This document shows, piece after piece, positions 39,216-42,018 of a DNA stretch of 64,000 bases. Origin of the DNA: Brevundimonas sp. NIBR11. Lineage in GTDB: Bacteria > Pseudomonadota > Alphaproteobacteria > Caulobacterales > Caulobacteraceae. The stretch lies in assembly GCF_027912535.1 (NCBI RefSeq), contig NZ_CP115465.1:1096001-1160000 (forward strand), in the 5' to 3' direction. How positions within the stretch are numbered: the stretch's first letter is position 1; each line of letters starts with the position of its first letter. Both the position numbers and the translations under genes were made by a program. A model generated the notes under the pieces. That model was not told where the DNA came from and searched no databases. It worked only from the letters and a program-made list of their open reading frames with translations.

Positions 39216-40535
39216 ATGTCGTCGCCCATGTCCGACCTGTTCGAAGCCTCCGGCATCCATCCCCCTGACGCGCCGCTCGCCGACCGCCTGCGTCCCGCGA
39301 CGCTGGACGAAGTGGTGGGGCAGGATCACCTGCTGGGCGAGGGCGGGCCGATCCGGCGGATGATCGAGGCCGGACGTCTGGGCTCCATGATCCTGTGGGG
39401 GCCGCCCGGCACCGGCAAGACGACCATCGCACGGCTGCTGGCCAAGGCCGCCGGCTACCAGTACCAGCAGATTTCGGCCGTCTTCTCGGGCGTCGCCGAC
39501 CTGAAGAAGGCGTTCGAGCAGGCGCGGATGCGGCGGGCGGCCGGGCAGTCGACCCTGTTGTTCGTCGACGAGATCCACCGCTTCAACCGCGCCCAGCAGG
39601 ACGGTTTCCTGCCGTTCGTGGAGGAGGGGGTGGTCACCCTGGTGGGGGCGACGACCGAGAACCCGTCGTTCGAGCTGAACGGGGCCTTGTTGTCGCGCAG
39701 CCAGGTCTTCGTGCTGAAGCGGCTGGACGATGCCGCCCTGGATCAACTGCTGACGCGGGCCGAGGCGATGGAGGGGATGTCGCTGCCCCTGACCCCCGAG
39801 GCGCGCCACGCCCTGACGGCGCTGGCGGACGGCGACGGTCGCTATCTGCTGACCATGGCCGAGACCCTGTTCGCCCTGCCGCCTGAGCCCGTTCTGGACG
39901 TCCAGGCGCTGGCGGGGACGCTGCAAAGGCGAGCGCCGGCCTACGACAAGTCGAGAGAAGAGCACTACAACCTCATATCCGCGCTGCATAAATCGGTGCG
40001 AGGGTCGGACCCGGATGCGGCCCTGTACTGGCTGGCGCGTATGCTGAACGGGGGCGAGGACCCGCTCTATCTGGCGCGCCGGATCGTGCGGATGGCGGTC
40101 GAGGACATCGGCGAGGCGGACCCGCTGTCGATCCTCGTGGCCAATGCGGCCAAGGACACCTATGACTTCCTGGGCAGTCCCGAAGGCGAACTGGCCCTGG
40201 CCCAGGCGGTGGTCCATCTGGCCACCGCGCCAAAGTCGGTCGGGGTCTACGAGGCCTATAAGGCGGCCAAGAAGGCGGCGGCCGAAACAGGCTCCCTGAT
40301 GCCGCCTGCCCATATCCGAAACGCGCCGACCAAGCTGATGAAGTCGCTCGGGTACGGGAAGGGCTATCAGTACGACCCCTCGACCGAGACCGGCTTCTCG
40401 GGGGCGAACTACTTCCCCGACGAGATGGAGCGGCGGGTCTTCTATGCGCCCAAGGGGGAGGGGCACGAGGAGAAGATCAAGGCGCGTCTGGAGCACTGGG
40501 CGGCGATGCGGGCGGAGATCCAGGCGAAGGGCTAG
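39216..40535 (+). CDS. rarA: Replication-associated recombination protein RarA (MgsA)
   Basis: The 439-residue AAA+ ATPase has Walker A GPPGTGKTTIA, Walker B LLFVDEIHRF, sensor 1 GATTEN, and the C-terminal tetramerisation domain (LAQAVVHLATAPKSVGVYEAY). RarA loads or remodels replication forks at stalled sites. The frame extends upstream to 39117 but the conserved protein begins around MSSPMSDLFE; I use ATG 39216, with AGGCGA upstream, and note ATG 39228 as equally possible. It converges on a structured gap and the Hsp33 gene. Confidence 0.92.
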   Translation: MSSPMSDLFEASGIHPPDAPLADRLRPATLDEVVGQDHLLGEGGPIRRMIEAGRLGSMILWGPPGTGKTTIARLLAKAAGYQYQQISAVFSGVADLKKAFEQARMRRAAGQSTLLFVDEIHRFNRAQQDGFLPFVEEGVVTLVGATTENPSFELNGALLSRSQVFVLKRLDDAALDQLLTRAEAMEGMSLPLTPEARHALTALADGDGRYLLTMAETLFALPPEPVLDVQALAGTLQRRAPAYDKSREEHYNLISALHKSVRGSDPDAALYWLARMLNGGEDPLYLARRIVRMAVEDIGEADPLSILVANAAKDTYDFLGSPEGELALAQAVVHLATAPKSVGVYEAYKAAKKAAAETGSLMPPAHIRNAPTKLMKSLGYGKGYQYDPSTETGFSGANYFPDEMERRVFYAPKGEGHEEKIKARLEHWAAMRAEIQAKG

Positions 40536-41091
40536 GGGGAGGGTGGACACGCGTCATCGTTCCTCCGCTGCGAACGGGTTGGGGAAGTCGACGGAGCCTG
40601 GGCGTTCGCCCGGAACCGATGTGGCCCCCTGCTTTCGCGTTACGGGGACCGATGAATGTTTTTCGGCTCGCGCCGAAGGCTCCGTCCCCGACCGGGTCCG
40701 CGAGCGTCGCCCAGCGGGTGTACGGACACCCCGGGAGGGGTCTGCATCATCGTCGCAACGATGACCGACCACAGGTCCCGAGTCCTTTGGACCCTCAGGC
40801 GATAGGCCCGCGACGGGCGGCGGGCTCAGGCCCGCCGGGCTCCGAGGTTTCACGCCCCTCGGACAACCCCGTTACGATCGGCCCCGCCGCACGTCCGGGT
40901 CCTGGGCCCAGGACGCCTTCCCCAACGACGGGATGCGAGCAGTGTAACGGAGGAATCCGCGGCGCCTGCGATAAAGGGCTTAATCAGAGCCGGGCGTTGA
41001 ATTCGTTGGACGAATTCCGGTGCCCGTTGATGGGTATGGCGCTGACACCCCTCTCCCGGCGGGAGAGGGGTGGCGCCTCCCGGAAAGGGGC
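40536..41091. other. Structured convergent intergenic region, no credible gene
   Basis: The 556 bases between the ends of rarA and hslO contain open frames on both strands, but their third codon positions lack the GC bias of neighbouring genes. Instead there are many perfect hairpins: TTCGGC/GCCGAA (40670-40685 region), CATCGT/ACGATG (40747-40762), GGTGT/ACACC (40718-40731), a CGGCGGGC/GCCCGCCG stem (40817-40836), and GTCCTGGGCCCAGGAC (about 40898-40913). On the minus strand the TTCGGC loop is GCGA, a GNRA tetraloop. A non-coding RNA is possible, but none of RNase P, tmRNA, 4.5S or 6S hallmark sequences is visible. Confidence 0.5.
40986..41070. repeat. Dispersed repeat ending in a 10-bp hairpin
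   Basis: This segment shares AGAGCCGGGCGTTGA and CGTTGATGGGTATGG with the reverse complement of 3993-4050. It ends in CCCCTCTCCC-GGC-GGGAGAGGGG (41048-41070). It may double as a terminator for hslO or rarA. Confidence 0.6.
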
Positions 41092-42018
41092 TCAGTCGGC
41101 GGCCTGCGCTTCCACTACGTCCGGTTCCAGCTTGTAGACCTTGGCGCAGTATTCGCAGGTGACGTGGATCTTGCCGTCGGGCTCGACCATGTCGGCGCGT
41201 TCTTCGGGGCCGAAGGACGCCAGCACGGCGCCGATGCGGTCGGCGGAGCAGCGGCACTGGGCCTTCAGCGCTCGGGCGTCCTCGAGCCGCACGCCGTCCT
41301 CGTGGAACAGGCGATAGAGCAGGGTCTCCGGCGACACCGTCGGGTCGATCAGTTCGTCGTCGCCGAGCGTCTGGAACAGGGCGCGGCTGCGGTCCCAGAC
41401 TTCCTCGGTCGAGCCGCGGGCGTCGTCGCCGGCGATCAGCTGGATCAGGGCGCCGCCCGCGCGCCAAGTGGTCCCGCCCTCATTGGTGACCGAACCGACG
41501 GCAAGGCGGACCTTGGTCGGGATCTGCTCGGACTGGACGAAATAGTGCTCGGCCGCCAACGACAGGCTTTCGCCTTCGATGGGGGTGATGCCTTGCGTGC
41601 GCTCGAAGTCGGGGCCGCGATCCAGAGTCATGACGAAGACGCCCTGGCCCAACAGGGTCTTGGCGCCGGGGCGGGCGAACCCTTCGGACGCGGCGGCGAC
41701 CTCGGCCTCGTCGAAGCGGCAGTAGCCGCGCAGGTGGCCCTCGGTGTCGTAGTCGGCGACGACGTAGCGGACGGGACCGTCACCCTGGGCCTGAACGATC
41801 AGGCGGCCTTCGAACTTCAGGGCCGAGCCGACCAGGGCGGCGAGCACGCAGGCCTCGCCCAAAAGCGCGGCGACCGGCTCCGGGTAGGCGTGGGCCGCCA
41901 GAATTTTATCGATGGCGTCGCCGAGACGGACCAGGCGCCCGCGCACGGGCCAGCCCTCGATCTGGAAGGCGGCGGCGAGATTGTCGGTCGGAACGGCGGC
42001 GGGCGCGTGATCGGTCAC
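41092..42018 (-). CDS. hslO: Redox-regulated chaperone Hsp33
   Basis: Hsp33 is a cytoplasmic holdase activated by oxidation and unfolding. The 308-residue protein has the N-terminal substrate domain and a C-terminal zinc domain with the four cysteines in CRCS and CEYC. These release zinc and form disulfides under oxidative stress. It is slightly longer than E. coli Hsp33. The start is GTG at 42018. It lies alone, convergent with rarA across the structured gap. Confidence 0.93.
   Translation of the reverse strand: MTDHAPAAVPTDNLAAAFQIEGWPVRGRLVRLGDAIDKILAAHAYPEPVAALLGEACVLAALVGSALKFEGRLIVQAQGDGPVRYVVADYDTEGHLRGYCRFDEAEVAAASEGFARPGAKTLLGQGVFVMTLDRGPDFERTQGITPIEGESLSLAAEHYFVQSEQIPTKVRLAVGSVTNEGGTTWRAGGALIQLIAGDDARGSTEEVWDRSRALFQTLGDDELIDPTVSPETLLYRLFHEDGVRLEDARALKAQCRCSADRIGAVLASFGPEERADMVEPDGKIHVTCEYCAKVYKLEPDVVEAQAAD

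Follow-up and report, generated by a model that had tools for sequence, protein, structure and literature searches.

A Candidate Family of Large Structured RNAs with Many Gene Copies per Genome in Caulobacteraceae

The Intergenic Region and Its Hairpins

The window, i.e., the whole 64,000-nucleotide stretch of DNA that was analysed, contains a gap at positions 40536–41091 that begins after the stop codon of a plus-strand gene for a RarA-like AAA+ ATPase and is bounded on its other side by an Hsp33 gene on the minus strand, confirming the initial annotation, which had placed the region between convergent rarA and hslO genes. The Hsp33 neighbour exceeds its cut-off, and the best NCBIfam matches of the RarA-like neighbour lie under theirs.

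Every perfect stem named in that annotation was found in the gap, and the number of stems is above that of shuffled sequence, with 15 perfect stems (at least 6 bp, loop of 3–8) compared with a mean of 2.15 and a maximum of 8 in 100 dinucleotide-preserving shuffles. They include GGGTGT/ACACCC at 40716–40731, CATCGT/ACGATG at 40748–40763 and CGGCGGGC/GCCCGCCG at 40818–40825/40830–40837, and the palindrome GTCCTGGGCCCAGGAC is located at 40899–40914. The minimum free energy of positions 40536–40990 taken as a whole was ordinary for the composition (z = −0.54 on the plus strand and −0.83 on the minus strand).

The view that the gap lacks credible coding also held. The cores of the 13 copies described below fall into two length classes, 354–357 and 393–395 nt, and because the indels among them disrupt every frame, no credible open reading frame is left in the gap. 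Together with the list of open reading frames, this implies that the repeated unit is without coding capacity.

Thirteen Copies in the Source Chromosome

Two independent end motifs were each found exactly 13 times in the source chromosome, without a mismatch. Their 13 places coincide, with 10 units lying on one strand and 3 on the opposite strand. The unit present at these 13 places consists of a tail with a −10 hexamer, an RNA core of approximately 345–460 nt and a 3′ segment. Mean identity among the copies was 96.5% in the core, 0.840 in the 35-nt 3′ segment and 0.817 in the 105-nt promoter-side tail. Outside the unit, the flanks were 48.5% and 49.5% identical, which is the level of unrelated DNA. 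A test for concerted evolution of the rRNA type thus returned a core homogenised among copies between flanks that have diverged. The promoter-side flank is common to three of the copies (L032, L036 and L038) over 162–213 nt and to two others (L033 and L035) over 127 nt; such sharing outside the unit points to recombination.

In seven of the 13 copies (L037–L040 and L051–L053), the core is longer by approximately 37–41 nt owing to an extra hairpin module at a single place, corresponding to positions 40863–40870 or so of the window copy. Cores of other species carry up to approximately 90 nt more at this place, which is a replaceable variable domain.

The sequence common to the copies stops near 41037. 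A perfect 13-bp hairpin at 41046–41072 adjoins the RNA gene but is separate from it, and similar GGGAGAGGG hairpins adjoin many of the other copies, on one side or the other. These hairpins look like a common terminator or a REP-like repeat of the genus.

Inspection by eye of the open reading frames adjoining the 13 copies revealed different neighbours, with none recurring as a partner. Likewise, an all-against-all comparison of the open reading frames next to 20 copies from 13 further genomes revealed no common protein other than those explained by orthology of the loci, such as ClpB, Dxs, a DUF559-like protein and a few more.

At a clpB site where two genomes, G115 and G145, have the promoter side in common, the 345-nt core was 97.4% identical (335/344), as opposed to 84.7% for the fourfold sites of clpB (416/491) and 82.6% for the tail. 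Between G115 and the G143 copy on the clpB side, identity was 92.7% in the core, 79.3% at the fourfold sites (386/487) and 56% in the tail. These two genome pairs are those covered by the comparison. The three copies of G143 have cores that are 99.4% alike, with tails at 82–89% and leaders at 64–69%. Since the core lies far above the fourfold sites of clpB and the cores are alike within a genome, the data indicate purifying selection combined with concerted evolution. A sequence tree revealed distinct subfamilies within one genome in G034, G110 and G145.

Parts of the Predicted RNA Gene

The ends of the RNA were inferred to lie near 40934–40935 (5′) and near 40560–40546 (3′). The features of the window copy, with the basis for each in brackets, are as follows.

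40560–40934, minus strand: predicted structured RNA gene, approximately 375 nt (13 copies, covariation, strand asymmetry, −10 hexamer)
40941–40946, minus strand: −10-like hexamer TACACT (fixed place before UCCCGUCG)
40947–41037, minus strand: promoter-side tail common to the copies of the source genome (mean identity 0.817 over 105 nt)
40925–40934, minus strand: 5′ strand of predicted helix Pa, AUCCCGUCGU (partner 40881–40890)
40881–40890, minus strand: 3′ strand of predicted helix Pa, GCGGCGGGGC (covariation)
40899–40914, minus strand: palindromic hairpin with loop GGGCCC (40904–40909), predicted kissing loop (palindrome kept in 70/90 rows)
40917–40923, minus strand: 5′ strand of predicted helix P1, GGGGAAG, within the loop of Pa (partner 40581–40587)
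40581–40587, minus strand: 3′ strand of predicted helix P1, CUUCCCC, closing the RNA (covariation)
40688–40691, minus strand: predicted long-range helix P3 (partner 40878–40881)
40841–40863, minus strand: predicted hairpin 40841–40847/40857–40863 (seven pairs, five covarying on both sides)
40806–40837, minus strand: two adjacent predicted hairpins, GCCC..GGGC (40806–40818) and CGGCGGGC/GCCCGCCG (40818–40837)
40590–40686, minus strand: predicted domain P2 (40590–40597/40679–40686) with three hairpins inside (covariation)
40662–40677, minus strand: TTCGGC/GCCGAA hairpin with GNRA loop GCGA (sequence)
40626–40647, minus strand: CCCC/GGGG hairpin with inner GC-GAAA-GC tetraloop at 40631–40638 (sequence; 80.5% of cells paired)
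40546–40580, minus strand: segment 3′ of P1, candidate 3′ end with a weak hairpin (identity 0.840 over 35 nt)

By eye, the hairpin in the last of these segments is weak in the window copy and stronger in other species.

Conserved Base Pairing

Of 55 predicted pairs followed through 18 sequences from the source genome and six others, 17 have both bases replaced with pairing retained; a second count gave two-sided changes for 19 of 45 pairs. The seven pairs of P1, whose strands pair across approximately 340 nt, are broken in none of the 18 sequences, and two of them have changed on both sides, in nine and eight sequences, respectively. For the model of the P2 domain, 91.9% of the cells are paired and the covariation score was matched by none of 500 shuffles; its two-sided pair count and pair-type count were unexceptional, being reached by 332 and 382 of the 500. 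Across 32 sequences from two genera, 96.6% of the cells of helix Pa are paired, and its score was 0.252 versus 0.166 in shuffles (0/500 as high), with no clear excess in two-sided pairs or pair types (162 and 35 of 500 shuffles). The first model (R1) and alignments A1–A3 were antisense to the RNA, in which case pair counts are valid and sensitivity is lower.

For covariation analysis against tree-based nulls, 101 matches were considered, 74 of them with flanks; nine were dropped for want of a recognisable end motif, which left 65 rows. Two rows with runs of N or an aberrant end were excluded, and 43 of the remaining 63 were kept after removal of near-duplicates. In these 43 sequences, eight helices of at least 4 bp with two-sided covariation were found, compared with a mean of 0.10 and a maximum of 1 in the nulls (n = 100). 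P1, P2, P3 and the 40841–40863 hairpin are among the eight, and the remainder represent alternative registers that do not belong to the proposed fold. P3 has three two-sided covarying pairs across the family; in the copies of the source genome, three of the five columns of its consensus register are broken and pairing is restricted to a shifted register.

This helix-level test was devised after two tests on single pairs. A G test with APC correction against a tree-based null gave no pair at E ≤ 0.1, and a looser pair count allowing G–U showed no excess (484 observed versus a null mean of 596). Deep splits that saturate the statistic, as well as misaligned helices, may account for both outcomes. 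As the single-pair tests nevertheless count as negative results, the claim of covariation rests on helices.

Strand and Putative Promoter

Non-Watson–Crick cells in the shared helices, read on the plus strand, comprise 121 A–C and 56 G–U. An A–C on the plus strand is a G–U on the minus strand and, therefore, the excess of A–C favours an RNA from the minus strand. Consensus folding energy was −204.0 kcal/mol for the minus strand and −178.7 for the plus strand, and in 20 rows (19 distinct) from a second genus, g286, it was −209.7 on the same RNA strand versus −183.4 on the other. The minus strand also has two loops of the GNRA type, GCGA (40662–40677) and GAAA (40631–40638). An RNA from the plus strand, considered at an earlier stage, was overturned by the strand asymmetry, the GNRA loops and the −10 hexamer.

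Of 43 sequences, 40 extended far enough upstream for promoter analysis. In all 40, the best TATAAT-like hexamer begins between −16 and −14 relative to UCCCGUCG, the range searched being −24 to −5. Hexamers with at least four of six matches including A2 and T6 were present in 28/40 sequences in the 16-nt segment next to the RNA and in 16/40 in the segment overlapping that one; elsewhere the count was 0 to 5, except for 13/40 at −105 to −90. The hexamer is TACACT or TATACT in the copies of the source genome and, by eye, CACAAT, CATAAT or CATACT in 20 of 20 rows from g286 (19 distinct), and it is poor (AACCCT and similar) in the clade of G004, G016, G029 and G111. A consensus promoter and terminator scan of the region found neither; by eye, no canonical −35 element was recognised, and no U-tract terminator was seen. 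Given the fixed place of the −10 hexamer, every copy seems to have a promoter of its own.

Directly upstream of the −10 hexamer, at the place expected for the spacer, a GAAACCGSGCG-like motif was observed in several lineages of both genera. It could be a site bound by a regulator or else an atypical promoter element.

The Palindromic Loop

Three features go beyond what had been noted from the window alone, namely the 13-copy state, the predicted minus-strand RNA behind its own −10 box and the weight of the 16-base palindrome, which is the most telling feature of the locus. The loop of this first hairpin is GGGCCC in the source genome. Across 90 RNA rows (88 distinct), a palindromic hexamer was found at the loop in 70, or in 32 of 39 when counted by genome; the next best palindromic site reached 32/90 rows with four palindromes. 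The sequences at the loop are GGGCCC (32), GGAUCC (21), GGCGCC (9), GGUACC (5), CAGCUG (2) and two singletons, with one row containing two. Of the 20 rows lacking a palindrome, 16 belong to one clade with GGGACCC and four are others.

All four self-complementary centres occur at the loop. Because the adjacent central bases cannot pair within one chain and all four such centres nevertheless occur, the loop bears a signal of self-pairing, and it may pair with its counterpart in another molecule. For OLE and GOLLD, loop palindromes that change while remaining self-complementary are interpreted as symmetric intermolecular kissing loops in the cited part of PMC12286853. The same hallmark, a loop covarying as a palindrome, which serves as a criterion for OLE, GOLLD and ROOL, is present in the RNA described here in the 70 of 90 rows given above.

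Homologues and Gene Order

A DNA search of 60 relatives, with up to 10 candidates scored per genome, showed the stretch to be repeated in the source genome and to occur in partial, diverged form in 12 of the 60. The first covariance model gave 101 matches in 35 of 131 genomes of the genus and hits in 3 of 385 genomes of a class-wide sample, all from the same genus. With a model of the minus strand, multi-copy homologues were detected in G076 and, in another genus, in G845; both aligned over the full length and have ATAAT or ACAAT at the −10 place. The third model (R3), which incorporated these homologues, matched 146 of 390 Caulobacteraceae genomes in five of 22 genera (81 in the genus of the source genome, 60 in g286 and five in three others), many of these genomes having at least 11 places, and again 3/385 of the class-wide sample, all of the same genus and including the source genome. 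Presence is patchy, with 50 of 131 genomes of the genus being without a match to R3 if the 390 include all 131. A single match apiece was obtained in G091, G115 and G154 with the first and third models. In G977 of g286, a 21-mer with up to two mismatches was found at 12 places on both strands, with none for the reversed control. This 21-mer is absent from 8 of 18 genomes tested and is, therefore, a lineage-specific motif. Searches for homologues in plasmids and phages and three exact-pattern scans of viral contigs gave no match.

Rfam 15 was scanned with 4227 models over 13 stretches, using E-value lists and gathering cut-offs. No family reached its cut-off over the RNA, and the few weak overlaps include GlsR1_miR6 at 20.3 bits against a cut-off of 100. 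When positions 39800–41800 were compared with Rfam at E up to 10, four weak matches were obtained, all far under the cut-offs. OLE, GOLLD, ROOL and HEARO were absent from the Rfam matches of the scanned stretches, and a literature search of titles and abstract openings found no account of such an RNA family. The initial guess of a novel structured RNA gains from these data, as Rfam cut-offs were not reached, homologues extend far beyond close strains into five Caulobacteraceae genera and compensatory changes were found. The family is repeated, as a known repeat family would be, yet the searches made gave it neither an Rfam nor a literature counterpart.

Copies are located at points where species differ in gene order. 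In none of 29 loci from other genomes did RarA adjoin HslO, within approximately 1.5 kb to either side of the latter. The gene pair at a second copy, next to GatB, was found in none of 21 such loci, yet it is present in G144, where the unit between the same genes is oriented oppositely to that of G000. With the RarA/HslO and GatB-side pairs missing elsewhere, no clean empty site could be found. Units at junctions with AtpI, Dxs and Lon have mixed partners in three genomes (gene names assigned by eye). Recombination between copies is the simplest account of these differences in gene order, transposition being a less likely one.

In G115, G072, G143 and G145, a copy lies approximately 2–2.7 kb from clpB (L122, L127, L129 and L136), with a DUF559-like gene in between in two of them. 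The opposite neighbour of these clpB-side copies differs, marking a recurrent breakpoint.

Alternative Explanations

Four other explanations were considered. A non-autonomous mobile DNA element of the MITE type, moved by a transposase in trans, with the hairpins serving transposition or arising as by-products, is unlikely. MITEs and REP/BIME-type repeats are dispersed, noncoding, intergenic and rich in hairpins, and the many copies at unrelated intergenic places in both orientations, the patchy distribution and the inverted unit at the GatB-side site would suit such an element, as would the ends of the copies in the source genome, which by eye resemble an imperfect inverted repeat that is not evident in other lineages. 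The unit described here is, however, larger than these repeats, bears a predicted promoter and has conserved long-range pairing. Its internal pairs are conserved with strand asymmetry, the −10 hexamer keeps a fixed place, and at a shared site the core changes far more slowly than fourfold sites. Furthermore, none of the scanned loci has a gene interrupting the unit between its 5′ and 3′ domains, no target duplication was seen, and the flanks that some copies share on the promoter side also argue against transposition. Among the loci reached, none had the two neighbouring genes of a copy without the unit between them.

A family of trans-acting small RNAs working by antisense pairing is less probable still. 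Such families occur in multiple copies in Caulobacterales, and SisA–D/alpha-r8 of Caulobacter, found within the same order, are noncoding paralogues encoded at separate loci, for which the cited part of PMC12559287 reports no conserved motif upstream of sisA–D. Measured against that description, the present RNA differs in that the −10 hexamer and tail travel with it and in that it is larger and more structured. Its size near 375–460 nt, conservation that resides in paired structure and structured loops with no conserved unpaired seed noticed, and the lack of an Rfam small RNA model at cut-off speak against this explanation.

The palindrome could also be a symmetric binding site in DNA, with the copies serving as recurrent targets of a protein that organises the chromosome or acts in recombination, which would agree with a loop kept palindromic and with copies located where gene order differs. 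This appears very improbable, because changes of the G–U type prevail on one strand, the −10 hexamer has a fixed place, the P1 strands pair over their long distance and a protein site has no need of four different palindromes. An IscB/TnpB-type guide RNA (HEARO, omega RNA) would likewise be structured and dispersed with variable flanks, but it is scarcely credible given no HEARO match in the Rfam scans and no IscB (RRXRR) over cut-off in 131 genomes of the genus, with one weak match, in a search that gave none in 14 control genomes either and so is without a positive control.

Proposed Explanation

We conclude that the gap quite probably holds one of the genes of a multi-copy family that encodes a large, folded, noncoding RNA, which may pair with itself, and the best reading of the sequence evidence is a new, promoter-bearing family of large structured RNAs in Caulobacteraceae. 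RNA polymerase would start near 40934 from the TACACT box. The RNA would be closed by P1 in a pseudoknot-like manner, as the 5′ strand of this helix falls within the loop enclosed by Pa, the first hairpin, and the palindromic loop of the 5′ hairpin would pair with a second molecule to form a homodimer or larger assembly. The many gene copies would supply dosage, and recombination between them would keep the core uniform and leave copies where gene order differs between species. An RNA of this kind would most likely have a structural role in trans, assembled either as RNA or as an RNA–protein particle, and not work by short antisense pairing. The wider proposal of a dosage-driven, self-assembling RNA across the family, in which many promoter-bearing copies yield an RNA of approximately 0.4 kb that forms RNA-only or RNA–protein assemblies through its kissing loop, is put forward tentatively and may well not hold.

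The closest parallel in mode of evolution is offered by rRNA genes, which are dispersed, have a promoter for each copy and possess a core homogenised by recombination between diverging flanks. The RNA family shares the dispersed copies, the putative promoters and the homogenised core, and it differs in being a single RNA in 13 copies that is patchy among species. If the dosage-driven proposal were true, the family would join rRNA and tRNA as a third class of RNA gene dispersed in multiple copies.

Few large ornate RNAs are known. Those treated in the cited part of PMC12286853 are associated with phages, prophages or Gram-positive extremophiles; OLE, GOLLD and ROOL resemble the RNA family in being large, heavily structured noncoding RNAs of poorly understood function, and they differ in having 600 or more nt, compared with approximately 375–460 nt here. 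Further differences are the 13 dispersed chromosomal copies, each with a −10 hexamer, the absence of a phage, plasmid or viral match in the searches made, and a range that so far comprises only Caulobacteraceae with no Rfam match at cut-off.

A large RNA outside Rfam with many seemingly promoter-bearing copies would thus be found across a proteobacterial family with tractable strains and, if the reading is true and g286 is Caulobacter, would reach a model bacterium. Its multi-copy state poses the question of why there should be many uniform genes for a non-ribosomal RNA, and the palindromic-loop signature opens RNA self-assembly to direct test. As the copies lie where gene order differs, they are also relevant to genome structure. 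They were frequently found at contig ends; draft assemblies are, therefore, broken by them. In the scaffolds of G032 (Brevundimonas sp. Root608; L044 and L048), N-joined duplicate pieces were observed inside RNA copies, which are probably assembly artefacts caused by the repeat family.
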